Origin: Pirellulales bacterium
GTDB taxonomy: Bacteria; Planctomycetota; Planctomycetia; Pirellulales; JAICIG01
Length of the DNA: 64,000 nucleotides
NCBI GenBank assembly: GCA_035533075.1
Contig: DATLUO010000185.1
Coordinates: 1 to 64,000, forward strand
Direction of reading: 5' to 3'
Shown here: piece by piece, positions 5,374 to 46,964 of the stretch
How positions within the stretch are numbered: position 1 is the stretch's first letter
How the letters are laid out: every line of letters starts with the position of its first letter
The notes under the pieces: model-generated
Database searches by the model: none
What the model was told of the DNA's origin: nothing
The model's input: the letters and a program-made list of their open reading frames with translations, nothing else
Position numbers and translations under genes: made by a program

Positions 5374-5619
5374 TGCATCCGTTGCCCGCACGGATTCGAT
5401 CGACCAACAACCGCGATCGCAAAGTATCTTATCAGGTTAACTTGGCACCGAATTTGATGCAACGATTTGGGCCGTTCGGGCGTTCCGACTGCGTAAGATG
5501 CGTAGAATATGCTAGGCTATGGTAGCCTGCCTCTTGCCTGGCGAGTTGATGTCCTGCGCGCGTCTTTACCGCCCCCACCCCACGCTGTTGTCGCTAACTT
5601 GCGTTTTCCGCAGAAGTCA
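5374..5619. promoter_or_regulatory. divergent intergenic region, kinase / NRPS
   Basis: About 245 bases separate the kinase start (minus strand) from the likely NRPS start (plus strand). Promoters for both genes should lie here. I could not pick convincing -35/-10 pairs by eye. An upstream in-frame ATG at 5509 would add 37 residues to the NRPS, but those residues do not look like adenylate-forming enzyme sequence. Confidence 0.4.
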
Positions 5620-8600
5620 ATGATTGGTCAATCGCTGCCATCGTCTCCCCTATTTCGTGCTCCGCCGGAGGCGCAAACCATCGCCGACGTGCTGCGCTGG
5701 CGCGGCGAGCACCAGCCTGATGAGATTGCCTTCACCTTTCTGGCCGACGGCGAGGACGACAAGCAGCCACTCTCTTATGCCGAACTCGACCGGCGGGCGC
5801 TGGCCATCGCCGCCGCGCTGATCGACGGCGGCGCGACCGGCAGCCGCGCGTTGCTGGTCTATGACTCGGGGCTGGATTACATCGCGGCCCTCTATGCTTG
5901 TCTTTATGCCGGCGTGATCGCCGTGCCGGTCTATCCGCCCGACCCTTTCCGCGTCGATCGCACGTTGCCTCGACTTCGCTCGATCGTCCACGATGCCGGT
6001 GCGAAGTGGCTCTTGGCGACGCAAGCCACGCTCGATTGGACGCGGCCCTTGTTTCAGCACGTCGCAGGTCTTGAATCGTCGCTGGCCACCGACCAGGTCG
6101 CCCAGGACAGCCCGCATGTTCTTCCCGCCGTCGCGCTGCCGGCCTTGGACCGCGGGCGACCGGCCTTGCTGCAATACACTTCCGGCTCGACGGGCGAACC
6201 GCGGGGCGTCACCATCACGCACGCCAACCTGATGGCCAATCTGGCGTCGATCCACGCCGCGGTCGATCGCGGAGACAACGTGGCGGTCCTTTGGCTGCCC
6301 GCCTACCACGACATGGGCCTGATCGGCGGCATCTTTCAGCCGGTCTACAGCGGACGGCGGAACGTGCTGATGTCGCCGATTTCGTTCATGCAGCGGCCGG
6401 TGCGCTGGCTGCAGGCCATTTCGCGACATCGGGGCACGATCACGGCGGCGCCGAATTTCGCTTACGACATCTGCCTGCGGAAAGTCACTGCCGAAGACCG
6501 CGCTCAGCTTGACTTGAGCAGCCTCCGCTTCGCTTTGAACGGGGCCGAAGTGGTGCGGCCGGAGACGCTCGACCGCTTTGCCGAGACGTTTGCCGCGTGC
6601 GGCTTTCGCCGGCGGGCCTTCTATCCCTGCTACGGGCTGGCGGAAGCGACGCTGATGGTGTCGGGCGGCTCCGACGTTGAGGATCCGATCGTGCGATCGT
6701 TTGCCGCCGCCGCGCTGGACCGCAAACGGGCCGTCGCCGCCGACGAAAACGACCGGCACGTGCGGCGCCTGGTCGGTTGCGGACGGCCCGTCGCCGGACA
6801 ACGAGTCGTGATCGTCGATCCGGAAACCCGTCAGCCGCTTGACGACGGACACGTCGGCGAAATCTGGGTCGCCGGCGACAGCATCGCCCAAAGCTATTGG
6901 AACCGCCCTGACGAGACCGCCGCCAGCTTCGGCGCCTCGCCGGCCGGCGAGCGTGAGGGCCGTTTTCTTCGCACGGGCGACCTCGGTTTCATCGACCAGG
7001 GCGAGTTGTTCGTCGCGGGAAGATTGAAAGAGCTGATTATCATTCACGGACGCAATCACTACCCCGACGACATCGAAGAGACCGTCAGTCGGACGCATCC
7101 GCTGCTGAAGAGCGACGGCGGCGCTGCGTTCGCCATCGAGGTCGGCGGCCAAGAGCGGCTGGCGATCGCGCAAGAGGTCGTCCGTCCGCGCAAGGCCGAC
7201 ACGCAGGCGCTGATCGATCGCATCCGCGCGCAGGTCGCCGAGGCACACGGCGTGGCACCGGCCGCCGTCGTGCTCATCCCGGCCGGCACGCTGGGCAAGA
7301 CCTCCAGCGGCAAGAAGCAGCGCCGCGGTTGCCGCGACCAGTTTATTTCGGGCAGTTTGCCGGTGATTGCCGAATGGCGTGACGAGCCGCTTCGTTGCGA
7401 CGGCGCGAGGCCGACGGCATCGGCGGTTGCGCCGCGAAACGAAACAGAACGAAGCCTGGCCGCTTTGTGGACTGAGGTGCTGGGGACGGAAGTGCTCGAC
7501 GTACACGCCAACTTTTTCGACCTCGGCGGTCAATCGCTGCTGGCCGGCCAGTTGGCCGCGCGCATCGAAGATGCATTCGCAGTGGACTTGCCGTTGCGAA
7601 CGCTTTTCTCGCGCCCGACCGTCGCCAGCCTGGCTGCCTGGCTCGATCAGCCGGACGAACAGCGGTCCGGCGATGTGCTGCCGCCTGTGACCTGCGCCGA
7701 CCGGTCGCAGCCGCTGCCGTTATCGAGATCGCAAGAGCAAATCTGGTTTCTGGAGCAGCTCGAAAGCGAGCCGCGATACAACCTGACGGCGTCAATCCGC
7801 CTGCGAGGTGCCCTGGACGTGCCGGCATTACGACGAAGCCTTGCGGCGGTGGTTGCCCGGCACGAGGCGCTGCGGACGCGCTTCCCTGTTTGCGACGGCC
7901 AGCCGCGGCAAATCGTTGCCCAGCGGCAGAACTCAGCGTTGGAAATCATCGACGGAACGACCGAACCCGAGGTTGCGGTGGCTGGGGCAGAGCCGCGCGA
8001 TGGATCTGGATTGCGCCTGACGCTCTGCCGCGGCGATGCCCCGGTAGCGCCACCACCGGGGCATCGCTGGCCGAGGGCGTCTTTGCAATGGCCTAGCCAA
8101 ACCCGGCCAGCTTCTGCCCCAGCCACCATCGATCGTGAGACGCCGGAATGGCGGCCGGCGAACGCGAAGTTCGATTTATCGGGCGGCCCTTTGTTGCGGA
8201 CCTCGCTACGACAGATAAGCGACGTGGAACACCGCTTGGTGATCGTGGCCCATCATCTGATCTGCGATGGCTGGTCGCTGGCGATCTTCCTCAAGGAGCT
8301 GGCGGAGCTTTATGCCGCGGACCTTGCCGGGCGGCCCGCCGCGCTGGACGAAGTGCTCTGGCACTATCCCGATTTTGCCGCCTGGCAGCAATCGTGCCTG
8401 GCGACGCCGCAAGTTGCCAAACAGATCGAGCATTGGAAAGATCGGCTGGACGGAGTGCAGCCGCTCGATCTGGCGACCGACCGTGTTCGTTCGGCGGAAG
8501 GCAAGTTCCGCGGAGCGGCGGTGAGTTGGACGGTGAGCGGCCGTCAGTCCGATGCGCTGTACGAATTGGCGCGTGGCGAGGGTGCCACGCCTTACATGGT

Positions 8601-11600
8601 TTTGCTGGCGGCCTTTCAAGCCTGGCTCGCCCGCTACGCGCGGCAACACGATGTCTGCGTGGGCTCGCCCGTTTCCTACCGGCCCCGTCGCGAGTTTGAC
8701 AAGACCATCGGCTATTTCGTCCAAATGCTCGCCTTGCGGAGCGATCTTTCGGGTGGACCGACGTTCCGCGAATTCCTGGCCCACGTTCGTGAGACGGTGC
8801 TCGACGCGCTGACCAACCAGGACGCTCCGTTGCGGGCAGTCGTCGATGCGGTGTCGCCGCCGCGCGAGGCCGGCCGCTCGCCGTTGTTCAACGTCGTGTT
8901 CGTGTTCGAGAACCTTCCCTGGCAGACCGTCGAAACCGCCGGGCTGTCGCTGGGCGAAATCGAAATCGATCACACGCGCATCGGCAGCTTCGACCTGGGA
9001 CTCGTCGTCGAGGAGCAGTCGAGCGGGCTGAAGGCGTCGCTGATCTACAATACCGAGTTGTTCGATGCCGGGACCGTCGAGCATATCGCGGCCTCGTTCC
9101 AGCGGCTGCTGAGCGAGATTGTCAGCGGTCCGGACCGGCCCGTGAGGCGGCTGCCGCTGGTTGATGAGCCACCGCGACGGTCAGAAACGGATGGCGCTGT
9201 TACGTGCGAGGCGTCGGCCTTGCGCGTCGACCAGCTTGTAGCCCGGCAGGTCGAGCGCGGCCCGGCGGCCACGGCCATCGTCGACGGCCCAAGGCGGTTG
9301 GGCTACGCCGAGCTCGACCGGCGAGCAAATCAGTTGGCCCATTACCTCCAGGCACTGGGCGTGCGAGAAGAAGTGCCGGTCGCCCTCTTCCTCGATCGCT
9401 CCGTCGAGCTGGTGATCGCCATGCTTGCCGTGCTTAAGGCGGGCGGCGCCTACGTGCCCTTCGATCCGCACGAATCATCGGGACGTTTGGCGCACATGCT
9501 CGCCGACGCCCAGCCGCGTGCGGTCATAACGTCGAGCGGCCTGGCCGAGCGGTTGCCCCCGCATGAAGCCGAAGAAATCGTACTCGACCGTGAGTCGCAG
9601 CTCGATCGTTATCCAACCGCTCCGCCTGACAATCGCGCCACGGCCGACAGCCTGGCATACATCATTTACACCTCCGGCTCGACCGGTCAGCCCAAAGGGG
9701 TCGAAGTTGCGCACGGCGCGTTGGCCAACCTGGTGCTCGCCATGGCCGATCAATATGAGCTGACGGCCGGCGACCGCGTGCTGCAGCTTATCTCGCCCGG
9801 ATTTGACGTGGCCGCCGAAGAAATCTTTCCCACGTTGATGCGCGGAGCGGCCCTGGTGCTGGGACCGCCGACGGCGGAACTGACGGGCCGCGGCATCCTG
9901 GATATCTGCCGGCTTCAGCGGGTGACGGTGGCCCATATTCCACCGCAACTTTGGCAGCAGTGCCTGCACGAATGGCAAACCGACGACGACGAAATCTTCG
10001 AGCATCTTCGCGTGCAGGTGATCGGTGGCGAGGCCCCGCAGGCAGAGACGCTCAACCGTTGGCTCCGGCGGTGCCGCGGCCGCACACGGCTGCTGCACGA
10101 ATTCGGGCTTACGGAAACCACGGTCACGAACCTTGTTTACGAGTTGCCCGCTGCGCTCGACGCCTGGCCGACCGATCGCAAGCTACCCATCGGCCGGCCG
10201 GTCGCCGCGACGGAAGTCTACGTGCTCGATGATTGCCGGCAAGGCGTGCCCGTCGGCGCGCCGGGCGAACTTTATCTCGGCGGGCCGGGGCTGGCGCGGG
10301 GCTATCACGGGCGGCCCGATTTGACACAAGAGCGATTCGTCCAGCATCCGTTCAGCGACGCGCCGGGTGCGCGGCTCTATCGCACGGGCGACCTCGTCCG
10401 CTGGCGGCCCGACGGGAATCTCGAATTCCTTGGCCGAGGCGACCAGCAGATCAAGCTGCGTGGCCTGCGGATCGAGCCGGGCGAAATCGAGCGCGTGCTG
10501 ACGCAACATCCGGAGGTCGGCGAGGCCGCCGTGATCGCCCGTGACGACGCCCCTGCCGGCAAACGCCTGGTGGCCTACCTTGTGCCGGCGAACGGATCTT
10601 TGCCGGCCCACGACGCGCTGCGGGCCTGGCTGCGGAGCCGCTTGCCCGACTCGATGGTGCCCGCGGCCTTCGTGCCGCTGGCGCGTTTGCCGTTGAATCG
10701 CAGCCACAAGCTCGACCGCGACGCCCTGCCGGCGCCCGTGTGGGAAAGCTCGGCACGGTCTTATACGCCGCCTCGCAACGAGACCGAGACGATCCTGGCC
10801 GGAATCTGGCAGGAAACGTTGCGGCTCGACCGCGTGGGCGTCCACGACAATTTCTTCGAGCTGGGCGGCGATTCGATTTTGACGATCCAGGTGGTTTCGC
10901 AGGCCCGCGAGGCCGGGCTGCGGTTTGCGCCTCGTCAGATTTTCGAGCACCAGACGATCGCCGAGCTGGCCGCGGTCGAGGGCGTCATCGCGGCCGCCGA
11001 GCAGGGTCCGGTCGAGGGCGGCGTGCCGCTGACTCCGATTCAACACTGGTTCTTGTCGGACGAGGTGGTCGATCCGCACCACTTCAACCAGGCGGTGTTG
11101 CTGGACGTCGCCCCGACATTCGATCACCGCTGGTTGCCGGAAGTCGTCGATCGGCTCGTCGAGCAGCACGATGCCTTGCGACTGCGGTTCGCGCGCGGGC
11201 CGGAAGGCTGGCGACAATGGCACGGCGCGCGGGAAGGCGCGTGGCCTGTGTCGCGGTCCGATCTCTCGCAGCGGTCCGCATCCGAGCAAGGGCCGGCGTT
11301 GACGGCGGCCGCCGCCGAGTTGCAGGCCAGTCTCGATCTCGAGTGCGGCCCGCTGGCCCGTGCCGCCTGGTTCGATTTGGGGCACGGCAAGGCCCGGCTG
11401 TTATTGATCGTGCATCATCTGGTGATCGACGCCGTGTCGTGGAGGTTTCTGCTCGAAGACCTGGCGACGGTCTGGACGCAATTGCAAGCGGGCAGCCCGC
11501 CCAGGTTGCCGGCCAAGACCAGCTCGTTCAAGCACTGGGCCGAGCGGTTGGCCGGCTATGCCGAATCGTTCGAGCTGCAACACGAAGTCGCCTATTGGCG

Positions 11601-12438
11601 CACGTTGGCCGATCGGCGTCCGGCGCGGTTGCCCCGTGATTTCGACGGCGACGGCACGTCCGCCGATGCGGATTCAATCGTCATTCAATTTGATGCGGCG
11701 CAGACCGCCGATCTGGTCGAGAGGGCCAACGCGGCCTATCGCACGCGGACCAACGAAGTGCTGTTGGCGGCACTCGGACAGACGCTGGGCGCGTGGGCCC
11801 AGGGCGACGTGCTGATTGACGTTGAGGCGCACGGCCGCGAAGGTTTGTTCGACGACGTCGAAGTCTCGCGCACGGTGGGCTGGTTTACGGCCTGGCATCC
11901 ATTCGCGGCGGTTCCCTGGCATCTGCCGCCCGGCGCTCTGTTGCGGCAGACGAAGGAATCACTACGGCGGGTGGCCGATCACGGAGTCGGCTTTGGCGTG
12001 CTGCGCTACTTGTCGCCAAGCGCGGAGACCCGGCGGCTGATGTCGGGCCTGCCGCAAGCGGAGATCAACTTCAACTATCTCGGTCGGCTGGACGATTATC
12101 TTCCCTCCGCCGGCCTGGCGAAGGCCGAAGAACCCGTTGGGCCGCCGCGCAGTCCGAATGCTCCGCGCCGCCATCTACTGGAAGTAAACGCCTACCTGCT
12201 GTCTGGCTGTTTGCGGGTGGAATGGACATATTCCCGCGCGCTCTACCGCCCTGGGACGGTCGAGCGGTTGGCCGCGGATTTTGTCGTTCGGCTAAATGCG
12301 TTGGTGGCCCATTGTCTTTCGCCGGAGGCCGGCGGTTTCACACCTTCCGATTTCCCGTTGGCGAAACTGAACGAGAGCGAGCTGGAAAAGCTGGCCAAGT
12401 TGTTGGGCGGGACCGGCGCGGACGATAAAATGACGTGA
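5620..12438 (+). CDS. lipopeptide NRPS: FAAL-ACP-C-A-PCP-E
   Basis: 2272 residues from ATG 5620 (a start at 5509 is possible). Order: fatty-acyl-AMP ligase about 20-600 ([15 protein letters not shown]); acyl carrier with Ser639 in DLGGQS; condensation domain from about 700 with HHLICDG at 878-884; amino-acid adenylation domain about 1205-1705 with [11 protein letters not shown] near 1350; carrier with Ser1752 in LGGDS; and a final epimerisation-type C domain with HHLVIDA near 1932 and [14 protein letters not shown] should load a fatty acid, which C joins to one activated residue; the E-type domain suggests a D-configured product. No thioesterase or reductase domain is present, so release must occur otherwise. 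My reading of the A-domain pocket (D-V-E-H-V-G-E-V-T) matches no substrate I know. A family A palindrome lies in frame at residues about 787-836. Confidence 0.93.
7977..8127. repeat. family A palindromic element inside NRPS condensation domain
   Basis: The 151-base element begins GGTGGCTGGGGCAGA and ends with its exact reverse complement TCTGCCCCAGCCACC. An inner palindrome around CGATGCCCCGGT / ACCGGGGCATCG is kept. The left arm between the two has diverged from the other copies. It is read through without a stop and adds about 50 residues between the early C-domain strands and the FDLSGGPLL segment, where C domains normally have a much shorter linker. With two extra bases (153) the phase is preserved. 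Confidence 0.88.
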
Positions 12439-16766: not shown

Positions 16767-16921
16767 GGTGGCTGGGGCAGAGCTTGGCCAGGTTGAGGTT
16801 GCTCCTTGATTCAGCTCGACGGCCAAGCGATGCCCCGGAACCGACGCACCGGGGCATCGCTTGGCCGTCACGCTGTGCAAAGGTGCTGACCGTTGCCCGG
16901 CCAAGCTCTGCCCCAGCCACC
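16767..16921. repeat. family A palindromic element in hemG leader
   Basis: 155 bases. The outer arms are perfect inverted repeats of about 23 bases beginning GGTGGCTGGGGCAGA. An inner perfect hairpin of about 20 bases carries GCGATGCCCCGG and CCGGGGCATCGC. It lies between the HemD-HemE stop and the hemG start, 18 bases from the hemG ATG, so any hemE-hemG mRNA would carry it as a nested stem-loop. Confidence 0.9.
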
Positions 16922-19466: not shown

Positions 19467-19620
19467 TGAGCTGCGTGCTGTTCTCGGTTTGCCACCAGCT
19501 TTAGAGATCGTCCTGCTTGCGGAAAAGATGGGCAAGTTCGTTTGTACGGCCGGAGGCCGTCGTAGCCGCGAAGCGGCGTGATTCATCAGCCCAGGGTGCA
19601 ACCCCGGGTGGACGTGCCCA
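19467..19620. other. short intergenic stretch, repeat-like, no HEPN gene
   Basis: The sequence contains palindromic words such as GGCCGGAGGCC and CCCAGGGTGCAACCCCGGG. No complete gene is seen. A frame running past the nucleotidyltransferase stop has no recognisable domain. Confidence 0.35.
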
Positions 19621-23653: not shown

Positions 23654-24301
23654 ATGGCAACCGTCGAGCAATTGTCGCTGGCCCCGGAAGACCGGGTCGT
23701 GTTGTCGGGCATTCCGTGGGAAACTTACGCGCGTCTGCGCGATGGCGAAGAGAACTACCGTGTCCGCATGACTTACGATGAAGGGACCCTGGAACTGATG
23801 TCGCCCTCGCCCGACCATGAAGCGATCAAACGGTTGATCGGCCAGATGATCGAAGCCCTCACTGAAGAATTGCGCATCCCGCGGAGAAGCTTGAGCGCGA
23901 CAACCTGGAAGCGGCCTGAGCTGGCCAAGGGACTTGAGGCCGACGAATGCTACTATGTTCTTAACCACCACCGCGTACGCGCACGCCGCAAGGTCGACCT
24001 GGCCGTCGACCCGCCGCCCGACCTGGTTGTCGAAGTCGAAATCAGCCGTAGTGCCGTCGGACGCCAGGCCATCTACGCCGCCCTGGGCGTGCCCGAAGTC
24101 TGGCGTTGGCGCGGCGAAGCTTTGACCGCCTGGTCGCTTGGCCCCGACGGGCAATACGTCGAACGCGAATACAGCTTGAACCTGCCCATGCTGCGCGTCA
24201 AAGACCTGGAACCGTTTCTCGACTTCGAGCGGAGCGTCGATGAATCCGCTTGGATTGCCGACTTCCGTGGCTGGGTGCGGCAGCGGTTTGCGACACCGTG
24301 A
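23654..24301 (+). CDS. Uma2 family (DUF820) putative restriction-like nuclease, copy 1
   Basis: 215 residues. The PD-(D/E)xK-like core is seen in [18 protein letters not shown], preceded by [19 protein letters not shown], both Uma2 hallmarks. Uma2 proteins are often numerous in planctomycetes and cyanobacteria; activity and targets are mostly untested. It starts 9 bases after the PSD1 stop and is followed 89 bases later by a near-identical copy (11 of 215 residues differ by my count), showing a recent tandem duplication. Confidence 0.92.
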
Positions 24302-24390: not shown

Positions 24391-25038
24391 ATGGCAACCG
24401 TCGAGCAATTGTCGCTGGCCCCGGAAGACCGGGTCGTGTTGTCGCGCATTCCGTGGGAAACCTACGCGCGGCTGCGCGAAGGCGAAGAAAACTACCGCGT
24501 CCGGATGACCTACGATGAAGGGACCCTGGAACTGATGTCCCCCTCCCCCGATCACGAAGCGATCAAACGGCTGATCGGCCGAATGATCGAAGCTCTCACC
24601 GAGCAACTGCGCATCCCGCTGAGAAGCCTGAGCGCCACAACCTGGAAGCGGCCTGAACTGGCCAAGGGACTTGAGGCCGACGAGTGCTACTACATTCTTA
24701 ATCACCACCGCGTACGCGCACGCCGCAAGGTCGACCTGGCCGTCGATCCGCCGCCCGACCTGGTTGTCGAAGTCGAAATCAGCCGTAGCGCCGTCGGCCG
24801 CCAGGCCATCTACGCCGCGCTGGGCGTGCCCGAAGTCTGGCGATGGCGCGACGAAGCTTTGACTGCCTGGTCGCTAGGCTCCGACGGGCAATACACCGAA
24901 CGCGAATACAGCTTGAACCTGCCCATGCTGCGCGTCAAAGACCTGGAACCGTTTCTCGACTTCGAGCGGAGCGTCGATGAATCCGCTTGGATTGCCGACT
25001 TCCGTGCCTGGGTGCGGCAGCAGTTTGCGACGCCCTAA
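24391..25038 (+). CDS. Uma2 family (DUF820) putative restriction-like nuclease, copy 2
   Basis: 215 residues, the second member of the tandem pair. The nuclease-like motif [18 protein letters not shown] and [16 protein letters not shown] are unchanged from copy 1. Differences are scattered single substitutions (for example G19R, R77L, G153D), so both copies keep an intact frame and presumed active site. The duplicated block starts at the ATG; the upstream sequences of the two copies differ. Confidence 0.92.
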
Positions 25039-26361: not shown

Positions 26362-26400
26362 GTAAGGTGGGACCAGCGAGCTTGCGAGCGCCGGCCCACC
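26362..26400. repeat. family B half-element (left arm only)
   Basis: The left arm starts GTAAGGTGGGACCAGC and ends CGCCGGCCCACC, as in the other family B copies, but the right arm is absent. The loop sequence that follows resembles the loop of the copy at 28789, then runs into family A at the shared GGTGG. Confidence 0.8.
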
Positions 26401-26418: not shown

Positions 26419-26573
26419 GGTGGCTGGGGCAGAAGCTGGCCGGGTCGCGGTAGTGCAGTCCCCAAGACGCCGTCGGCCAGCGATGCCCCGGTGGTGCTGC
26501 TGCCTGGGCATCGCTGGCCGCAGGGCGTGTTGGCAAATCCAGCCGAGCCCGGCCAGCTTCTGCCCCAGCCACC
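26419..26573. repeat. family A palindromic element between propeller gene and blaI
   Basis: 155 bases. The outer arms are perfect inverted repeats of about 26 bases beginning GGTGGCTGGGGCAGA. The inner hairpin is CGGCCAGCGATGCCC / GGGCATCGCTGGCCG. It fills most of the noncoding gap 26331-26696; apart from it, the family B half and the blaI leader I see nothing in that gap. Confidence 0.9.
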
Positions 26574-27221: not shown

Positions 27222-28744
27222 ATGACGTGGCTTGTTACGACGGGACTGACCAACGCCTTGCTGGCCTCGCGTCGGCACCGCGCGTGGCGGTGGTCGAAAG
27301 CGCCGTCTCGCCGATGCTGTGGGGCGCCGGCCGGAATGCTTGCCTGCTGTTCCCCGCGGAACTGACGCGCCGCATCGACGCGGCTGCGTGCGACGCGCTG
27401 CTGCTGCACGAGCTGGCCCACTACGCGCGCAGCGATTGGCTGGTCCGCCTGTTGGAACTGGCGGTGCAGGTGCTCTACTGGTGGCATCCGCTCGTGTGGT
27501 GGGCGCGGCGCGAGATCGAGGCCGCCGAAGAAGAGTGCTGCGACGCTTGGGTGATTCATCAGGTCCAATCGCGGCGACGATATGCCGAGGCCCTGCTGAC
27601 GACGCTCGATTTTCTCTGCGAGCCGCTGCAGCCCTTGCCTCCGGCGGCCTGCGGACTGGGTGCGGTGCCGCTCTTGCGGCGGCGCTTGACGCAGATTATA
27701 TGCGGCGAGGTGGCGATTCAACCCTCGCGATGGGCCCGCGCGCTCGTTCTGACTGGGGCGGCGGTCGTACTTCCGCTTGGCCCGGCATTCGTCGGGCCGC
27801 AGCACGAAGCCTTGGCAGGTACATCTGTAGGGAACGCCCTCCGTGGCGTTCCGCGCGGCGGGACCGGCGCAAATCCCAACGAGGCGGAACGCCACAGGGC
27901 CCAGAGGGCGCCCCGTTCCCTACAGAGCCCGGTCCGCGCAAAGGACATAGCTCCGACATCGTCCAGCGGACCACGGCCAGCCTCGTGGTTTGTCGCTCGC
28001 GACACGTCGCCGCGGGTCGGCGCGGTGGTCTACGCCACGGCGGTTTCGCCCGATGGCCGCTACAAGCTGCAGGCCCGCACCGGCCATCGTGCCGCATTGG
28101 TCGACGTGGAGTCGGAAAAGTCGGTCGACCTGAGCACGTATCGCATCGTCTCGGCGTCGTTCTCGCCCGACGGCCGGTTTCTGGCGACGGCGCAGGAAGA
28201 CGAAAGCGTGGTGCGTCTTTGGGACTGCAAAACGGCCGTCGTCCGGTCGCTGCTCAAGGGGAGCGAGTCGGCGCTGGTATCGGTCGCCTTTGCCCCTGAC
28301 GGCGCGCGGGTGGCGGCCGGCGCGGCCGATGGCAGCGTGCTGGTTTGGAACATGGCTGATGAGGAAGTCGTAGCTCGATTGCTCCTGCACGAGGCGCCGG
28401 TGAGTTGTTTGCGGTGGACGAAACAGAGCGATCGTTTGGCGATCGCCTTGGGCACATGGTTGGACCGCGAGCTCTCGTCGCTCATCGTCTGGCGGCCGGC
28501 CGACGGCCGCGTCAGTGAAAACGTGTCGCTCGACAATCCGGCGGGCGCCATCGACTGGCTCACCGACCACAAGCTGATCGTGGCCGATTGGGGCGGCGAG
28601 GCCCGCGTGTGCGATCTGCGTTCGGGCCTATCGGTCGAAAGGCTCTGGCTGGGCAAAGATTTGGTTTCGGCTGCCGCCTTCTCGGCCGACTGTCCTTTGC
28701 TGCCGCGTTGGCAGGCCGCAAGATTCGGTGAAGGAGGCGATTGA
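27222..28744 (+). pseudogene. broken M56 (BlaR1-like) peptidase with WD40 tail
   Basis: ATG 27222 encodes MTWLVTTGLTNALLAS, the usual first helix of planctomycete M56 proteins. The rest of the protein (APRVAVVESAVSPMLWGAGR, HELAHYARSDW with zinc motif HExxH, EEECCDAWVI) is in another frame, and the intervening helices are missing. I infer an internal deletion with frameshift near 27268. The intact downstream frame runs from 27212 and has 510 codons. Residues about 270-500 of that frame are WD40-like (FSPDGRFLATAQEDESVVRLWD). A family C repeat lies in the linker. The C-terminus also ends abruptly. Normally this protease would sense a signal and release BlaI repression. Confidence 0.75.
27825..27925. 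repeat. family C palindromic element inside M56-WD40 frame
   Basis: About 101 bases, from CTGTAGGGAACGCCC to CGTTCCCTACAG, with inner GTGGCGTTCCGC / GCGGAACGCCAC. It is read in frame as an extra segment (SVGNALRGVPRGG and following) between the transmembrane region and the WD40 part. Confidence 0.85.
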
Positions 28745-36703: not shown

Positions 36704-36759
36704 GGTGGCTGGGGCAGAGCTTGGCCGCTACCTTCAGAACACGCTCTGCCCTAGCCACC
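36704..36759. repeat. family A short (internally deleted) copy
   Basis: 56 bases: GGTGGCTGGGGCAGAGCTTG, a short centre, then GCTCTGCCCTAGCCACC with one mismatch. The inner hairpin of full copies is absent. It lies 34 bases after the desaturase stop; the rest of 36670-36921 is the leader of the next gene. Confidence 0.85.
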
Positions 36760-45907: not shown

Positions 45908-46921
45908 ATGCACAACGATCTTATCCTGGTGGCCGGCGGCGGCGGCTTCATTGGAGGCCACCTTGTGGGCGCCTTGCTGCGGCAAGGCCACGCACGCGTT
46001 CGCGCCGTCGACATCAAGCCGCTCGACGAGTGGTACCAAGTGTTCGACCAGGTGGACAATGTCACCGCCGACTTGAAAGACGCCTGGGTTTGCAAAAACG
46101 CTTGTCTGGACGCTACCGAGGTCTACAATCTGGCGGCCGACATGGGCGGGATGGGCTTCATCGAAAACAACAAGGCCCTCTGCATGCTCTCGGTGCTGAT
46201 CAACACTCATTTGCTGATGGCTGCGAAGGAGGCGGGCGTGCGACGGTATTTCTATGCCAGCTCGGCCTGCGTCTACAACGCCGACAAGCAGCGCTCGGCA
46301 GACGTAACGGCCTTGAAAGAGGATGACGCGTACCCGGCCCTGGCCGAGGACGGCTACGGCTGGGAGAAGCTGTTTTCAGAGCGAATGTGCCGCCACTTCC
46401 GCGAGGATTTCGGCATGGTAACGCGCGTGGCGCGGTTCCACAACGTCTACGGTCCGCACGGCACTTGGAAAGGCGGCCGCGAAAAGGCCCCCGCCGCAGT
46501 CTGCCGTAAGGTTATCGACGCGCTGGCGACGGGCAAGCACGAGATTGAAATCTGGGGGGACGGTCACCAGACCCGCAGCTTCATGTACATCGAAGATTGC
46601 TTGCTTGGCATCGAGCGGATCATGGCCAGCCCGATCGAGGAGCCGATCAACCTGGGCTCGAGCGAACTAGTGTCGATCAACGGTCTGGTTGATCTGGTCG
46701 AAGACATCGCCGGAGTGCGACTGAAGCGCAGGTACAACCTGTCCGCCCCGAAGGGCGTAAAGGGTCGCAACAGCGACAACACAAAGATCCGCGAATACCT
46801 CGGCTGGGAACCAAGCACCCGGCTGCGCGACGGCCTGGAGCGGACTTATGCCTGGATTTACGACGAGTATCACGCCAACAACGGCGTCCGCGTCCGAGAG
46901 GCGGTCACAAGCGCTCTATAG
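45908..46921 (+). CDS. GDP-mannose 3,5-epimerase-like SDR
   Basis: 337 residues from ATG 45908. Rossmann motif LVAGGGGFIGGHL; catalytic SSACVYN with a Cys; YGWEKL (YxxxK). The stretches NLAADMGGMGFIENN and FHNVYGPHGTWKGGREKAPA closely resemble GDP-mannose 3,5-epimerase (plant GME type). The product would be GDP-L-galactose or GDP-L-gulose as precursor for the polymer. Another NDP-sugar epimerase of the extended SDR family is possible. Its TAG stop lies within a family C half-repeat. Confidence 0.88.
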   Translation: MHNDLILVAGGGGFIGGHLVGALLRQGHARVRAVDIKPLDEWYQVFDQVDNVTADLKDAWVCKNACLDATEVYNLAADMGGMGFIENNKALCMLSVLINTHLLMAAKEAGVRRYFYASSACVYNADKQRSADVTALKEDDAYPALAEDGYGWEKLFSERMCRHFREDFGMVTRVARFHNVYGPHGTWKGGREKAPAAVCRKVIDALATGKHEIEIWGDGHQTRSFMYIEDCLLGIERIMASPIEEPINLGSSELVSINGLVDLVEDIAGVRLKRRYNLSAPKGVKGRNSDNTKIREYLGWEPSTRLRDGLERTYAWIYDEYHANNGVRVREAVTSAL

Positions 46922-46947
46922 GGAACGCACTCCGTGGCGTTCCGCGA
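46919..46947. repeat. family C half-element at gene junction
   Basis: TAGGGAACGCACTCCGTGGC followed by GTTCCGCG matches the left arm of the family C copy at 27825 with one change. Its first three bases are the stop codon of the epimerase gene. It fills most of the 43-base gap before the next glycosyltransferase. Confidence 0.8.
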
Positions 46948-46964
46948 GGCGCCTCGAAATCACC

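Follow-up and report, generated by a model that had tools for sequence, protein, structure and literature searches.

A palindromic repeat lies in frame within the first condensation domain of an NRPS from a Pirellulales bacterium

How does a palindromic repeat with perfect terminal arms come to reside inside a catalytic domain of a large synthetase, and is it carried there as part of the protein? The question is raised by an NRPS gene (5509–12438, + strand) located in the 64,000-nt stretch of Pirellulales DNA analysed here (the window). The gene encodes 2309 amino acids and comprises a FAAL-type AMP ligase (a fatty-acyl-AMP-ligase-like first domain), PCP, condensation (C), A, and PCP domains, and a terminal domain that is C/E-like. 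An initial annotation had described a 151-nt palindromic repeat with perfect 15-nt terminal inverted repeats that lies in the first C domain, is read without a stop, adds about 50 residues ahead of the FDLSGGPLL segment, and leaves the active-site motif HHLICDG after it intact. All of these features were recovered by our analysis. The reading frame is open throughout 5509–12438, the unit at 7977–8127 is bounded by GGTGGCTGGGGCAGA (7977–7991, + strand) and its exact reverse complement (8113–8127, − strand), and HHLICDG is present at 8251–8271 (+ strand). The placement in the protein had to be amended, as the insert corresponds to residues 823–874 counted from the ATG at 5509 and not to residues 780–845.

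The element is strongly structured. Its RNA fold has a predicted free energy of −99.3 kcal/mol (z = −7.4), wherein the terminal inverted repeats pair with one another and a central hairpin (8033–8067) formed by GCGATGCCCCGGT, 9 nt, and ACCGGGGCATCGC pairs with itself; the equivalent DNA fold gives z = −6.65. The arms of this hairpin are similar to the terminal repeats. A search of Rfam yielded no match at 7977–8127. We assign the unit to a repeat that we call family A on the basis of its terminal repeats, its genome-wide copies, and its fold.

The host domain (7714–9168, + strand) was identified by Pfam PF00668 and by alignment with PDB 6p1j, and its membership among NRPS condensation domains is supported by the HHxxxDG motif and by the predicted C-domain fold. 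The insert splits the 6p1j alignment into two blocks (query 17–85 and 157–471 versus chain 6–76 and 93–415), between which the query holds 71 residues and the 6p1j chain 16, leaving 55 extra residues in the query. The segment is likewise absent from all 20 homologous C domains of the order that were aligned, in agreement with the original assertion that C domains lack such an insert. An AlphaFold2 model built from an alignment (pLDDT 83.5, pTM 0.83) has NRPS C domains as its best PDB matches by Foldseek, and its sole segment with pLDDT below 50 spans model residues 101–154, of which 104–154 are the insert. The segment is thus modelled as a disordered loop, as had been anticipated. This predicted loop lies between a strand (92–96) and a helix (160–166) and is distant in sequence from HHLICDG. 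The same peptide encoded elsewhere without the palindrome would speak against an insertion, and we therefore looked for it in 294 genomes of the phylum. The search returned only repeat copies of the same genome and three weak matches (41–51% identity, E about 1e-4 to 1e-3), and so did not refute the proposal.

Family A is abundant in this genome. Eight matches to the terminal repeat occur in the window versus 0.22 expected from shuffled sequences, and 383 matches with at most one mismatch are found in the whole assembly (8.54 Mb, 296 contigs) versus none for a reversed control. We estimate about 190 elements in total, and 70 units of 136–166 nt carry exact terminal repeats at both ends. Site counts were drawn from 1.32 Mb of the genome, selected partly because it bears repeats; this DNA holds 91 sites, 62 of which are full length (147–160 nt, except for one of 206 nt), with 153 and 154 nt being the commonest lengths. 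Other copies in the window include an intergenic unit of 155 nt (16767–16921), another of 155 nt that adjoins a repeat of a second family and lies outside any supported gene (26419–26573), and a short copy of 56 nt with one mismatch in one terminal repeat (36704–36759). Two further features of the window were also noted, namely a match to the Rfam Acido-Lenti-1 RNA at 19564–19608 (minus strand, 39.6 bits, above the gathering score) and a 300-nt direct duplication whose copies (23654–23953 and 24391–24690) are 92% identical and 737 nt apart.

In many copies, the arms of the central hairpin read GGCCAAGCGATGCCCCGG and are similar to the inner end of the terminal repeat, GGCCAAGCTCTGCCCCAG, such that by eye the core resembles two related hairpins in tandem. 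Many intergenic copies are enclosed by outer inverted repeats, TATACTTCACGCGGCCGAGAATGAGACATT, to form a larger unit; both outer arms are present on 12 copies (232–251 nt, mostly with TA at both ends) and one arm on 23. We also observed a 68-nt outer unit that has no family A core (L116:18091–18158). The outer TATACTTCACGCGG inverted repeats with their TA ends therefore exist both with and without the core, an arrangement that would fit a core lodged within a second small element. The NRPS copy consists of the core only, without the outer arms, and its closest relative among the other copies is 84% identical. Because core-only copies stop sharply at their terminal repeats and have unrelated flanks, the core is probably mobile on its own. 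The core ends show no visible target-site duplication.

Family A falls within the MITE size class (70–300 nt, terminal repeats of 15–30 nt, no gene, and high copy number), and it would be mobilised by a transposase acting in trans. No autonomous element with family A ends was seen in the DNA read, which amounts to about 15% of the genome. The genome has 12 matches to Y1_Tnp, and family A lies near one of them, which is about the level expected by chance. No Y1_Tnp gene was found with family A ends on both sides, and the Y1_Tnp loci lack consistent family A flanks, which gives no support to a link. A search of plasmids gave no match to family A. Copies with exact ends occur in two of 197 genomes of the order, including the present one, and both belong to one Pirellulales family. 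A scan of named GTDB genomes found family A only in Pirellulales bacterium GZL_HY_2_bin.141, which we infer to be the genome of the sister genus used below (G001), given that copy number and lengths agree and that one position is identical.

A core of 151 nt would by itself shift the reading frame (151 mod 3 = 1), and the two halves of the C domain share one frame when the element is read through. Therefore, the net insertion must include one or two bases gained or lost, either flanking or internal, at the time of insertion or later. The length of the core varies from 147 to 160 nt among copies.

The initial annotation had further claimed that the repeat spreads into genes and that frame can be preserved. 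To count copies within genes, we applied a codon-usage test to both flanks together with the demand for an open frame, a combination that random points pass 52% of the time. Among 85 family A sites tested in this manner, 3 lie in genes versus 44 expected under random placement (P of 3 or fewer about 7e-23). Preservation of frame was thus upheld, whereas general spread into genes was contradicted by the depletion. Family A was nevertheless found in frame inside other coding regions, as the same annotation had recommended looking for. The second clear example is a 156-nt copy (C31:57139–57294) in a caspase-like ORF of 1582 amino acids, where homologues match both sides of the linker. The third (C67:8453–8612) lies in a single 1001-aa ORF between prohead-protease and capsid regions, and it may sit at a gene junction rather than inside a gene.

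All in-gene copies are free of stops in the phase of the gene, and all three coding copies use the phase that encodes VAGAE. We do not claim a preferred phase, since any one phase is free of stops in about 60% of copies and the sample is n = 3; two or three clear in-gene copies are too few for a strong test of frame bias. Inspection of the same-strand neighbours of family A copies revealed no convincing gene disrupted out of frame. Judged from these sequence counts, the pattern is one of purging (or avoidance) with rare in-frame survivors. Long open frames across copies on C115, C205, C246, C173, C45, C135, C114, and C144 were rejected as in-gene cases owing to the lack of a one-frame coding signal on both sides, and a half copy at C45:18422 was set aside because the kinase-like gene there seems to start downstream of it. 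In the prophage-like region on C67, prohead protease and capsid are joined in one ORF (L121:7121–10123) that includes in-frame GTAG-REPs together with an in-frame family A copy, and a nearby terminase-like ORF (L121:18145–19899; recognised by eye, with no Pfam match) holds an in-frame REP.

The closest NRPS available for comparison without the insert comes from another genus, G001. This ortholog is 57% identical, and its first C domain lacks the element found at 7977–8127. Comparison of the two genes gives dN 0.35, dS 1.30, and dN/dS of about 0.27, with dN low to either side of the insert and both flanks conserved, which indicates that the NRPS gene is under purifying selection. The ortholog (L088; G001:C187, about 10554–11129, minus strand) has taken up repeats of its own, and both are in frame. 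The same loop of its C domain contains a GTAG-REP pair, with stretches of about 38 and 32 nt that are 95% and 91% identical to REPs of G001, and a second loop contains a family A half element that matches other G001 copies at 26 of 26 nt. As read from these two genes, repeats of two families have inserted into one C domain on at least three occasions across two genera, and two of these events hit the same loop. The length of the loop that carries the insert also differs among other C domains (L050 and L053), and the simplest reading is therefore tolerance and not targeting.

The GTAG-REP, GTAGGGTGGGACCAGCGAGCTTGCGAGCGCCGGCCCACC, is the second repeat family of the window (copies at 26362, 28789, and 35331) and forms inverted pairs. 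Of 62 such GTAG-REPIN pairs, 33 have a length of precisely 96 nt, equivalent to 32 codons, and none of these 33 contains a stop on either strand in the phase that begins at GTA. Several of these 96-nt units lie in frame within ORFs: two in an error-prone DNA polymerase (L226:1105–4596, C116; NCBIfam score 1466 versus a cut-off of 939), and one each in an Lhr-type helicase (L228:2965–3060), a UvrD-like helicase (L230:3339–3434), a membrane-protein-like ORF (L234:1891–1986), and a P-type ATPase (L141:4799–4894). In addition, CobU and CobT form a single ORF joined across a GTAG-REPIN (L176:5261–7060, C89) and are adjacent separate genes in G009, suggesting that the GTAG-REPIN may have fused them. 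Note that these loci were partly selected for long frames and hence constitute a list, not a rate. The polymerase ORF also contains what looks like a second REP, VGNALRGVPVRT, and another GTAG-headed repeat, GTAGGGAACGCCCTCCGTGGCGTTCCG, occurs in the window at 27824–27860 and 46915–46951. It is conceivable, albeit rather unlikely in our estimation, that the palindromic repeats of this Pirellulales lineage are shaped to survive translation, with the GTAG-REPIN repeatedly giving rise to insertions in proteins and to fused genes (the error-prone polymerase, the helicases, CobU–CobT, and the NRPS loops) and family A as a second, less tolerated cassette.

We consider it most probable (roughly 85%) that a family A element inserted into a loop of the C domain and is translated in place as a near-neutral passenger. 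According to this proposal, the inserted sequence would be a core copy of a mobile palindromic repeat that is non-autonomous (usually 151–156 nt, with 15-nt inverted ends and an internal hairpin). It would have entered the first C domain at a loop flanked by the beta strand that follows the QIV segment and by the helix that precedes FDLSGGPLL. Small indels at the ends of the element or inside it would then have made the net change a multiple of three, in a phase without stops. Translation in place would add about 50 disordered residues rich in Ala, Pro, Gly, and Arg at a position where C domains tolerate extra length. Because the fold and active site would be kept, the enzyme presumably retains activity and the copy would persist as a near-neutral passenger, whereas gene-breaking insertions would be purged, so that almost all other copies are intergenic.

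It is improbable that the gene is instead a recent pseudogene or codes for an inactive synthetase, its C domain destroyed by the insertion and its ORF yet to decay. The insert does sit in a catalytic domain, and the dN/dS value averages the whole divergence from another genus and is therefore blind to a recent loss of function. However, 2309 codons are maintained without a stop or frameshift, HHLICDG is intact, the domain is modelled as well folded around the insert, and the ortholog remains open after accepting in-frame repeats in the same domain.

We regard as very unlikely the notion that the insert has been co-opted and is under selection, either as a protein loop or as an mRNA hairpin that, for example, slows translation of the C domain. 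The hairpin of −99 kcal/mol and the perfect terminal arms kept in a coding copy could be taken as signs of a function, as could the independent placement of palindromes in the same loop in two genera. Yet those repeats differ in sequence and length, the peptides they encode have no clear similarity, and disorder is predicted for the loop. Intergenic copies commonly have perfect arms too, and the arms may therefore simply be young.

A long stable hairpin bounded by inverted repeats could in principle be bypassed, and a protein without the insert could thus be made by RNA-level removal or ribosome skipping. This alternative is scarcely credible, because precise excision of 151 nt would throw everything downstream out of frame, while the frame holds when the element is read, a circumstance that favours translation in place over removal, splicing, or bypass; the stop-free in-gene copies weigh against it as well. 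An assembly artefact that misjoined a repeat into the gene might be suspected from the 296 contigs and from a copy near a contig end (L129) with inverted-duplicate flanks, but it is exceedingly improbable given that the NRPS copy differs by at least 16% from every other copy, that its flanking halves form one gene in one frame with homologue matches on both sides, and that the sister genome independently shows the same kind of event.

With translation in place as a near-neutral passenger as the preferred reading, the element can be compared with known systems. In-frame palindromes were first described in Rickettsia, where elements of about 150 bp lie in ORFs in nearly half of the cases (PMC10969869) and are translated in the frame of their host genes, which are unrelated (PMC10969869, PMC3733652). 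The resemblance to these elements (RPE) proposed at the outset is only partial. Family A is also a palindrome of about 150 nt that is in frame in unrelated genes (the NRPS, the caspase-like ORF, and the junction case), but just 3 of 85 sites are in genes. Moreover, RPE-4 and RPE-6 carry a CGTC tag that family A lacks, and the likeness is one of behaviour.

REPs with GTAG or CGTC tags are reported from many species, and also from the PVC superphylum, within genes such as those for repair polymerases and helicases (PMC3733652). The GTAG family of the present genome and of the sister ortholog agrees with this description, including its polymerase and helicase targets. Family A differs in that it is longer, has 15-nt inverted ends, ends in GGTGGCTGGGG, and has no GTAG tag. 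Families of inverted repeats that are unrelated to REPs have been linked to TIRYT tyrosine transposases (PMC3733652); the present genome has 12 Y1_Tnp matches, but no such gene was found flanked by family A ends. Finally, MITEs and the ERIC/RU elements of enterobacteria are short and non-autonomous, have inverted ends, and sometimes lie in frame in ORFs (PMC5896051, PMC2759123), with QMITE1/2 of Coxiella burnetii as in-frame examples (PMC5896051). Family A is similarly short, with inverted ends, no gene, and high copy number, but its core has no target-site duplication, and TA at both ends is seen only in the larger 232–251-nt form with outer TATACTTCACGCGG ends.

Searches of the literature for palindromic repeats inside NRPS genes returned nothing relevant, and no description of family A was found in the literature searched. 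The suggestion that such elements were undescribed for planctomycete megasynthases holds for the family and its target only, because in-frame palindromes outside Rickettsia, including in the PVC superphylum, have already been published (PMC3733652). We class family A as a new family of palindromic, MITE-like repeats with known behaviour, and the family together with the repeated entry into the same enzyme domain in two genera appears to be new.

These findings extend protein-coding palindromes to a megasynthase of the Pirellulales, and they provide a natural comparison between two genera in which the same C domain was independently hit, in frame, by two unrelated repeat families. Whether such repeats are passengers or raw material for proteins thereby becomes a question that can be tested on an enzyme whose product is measurable.
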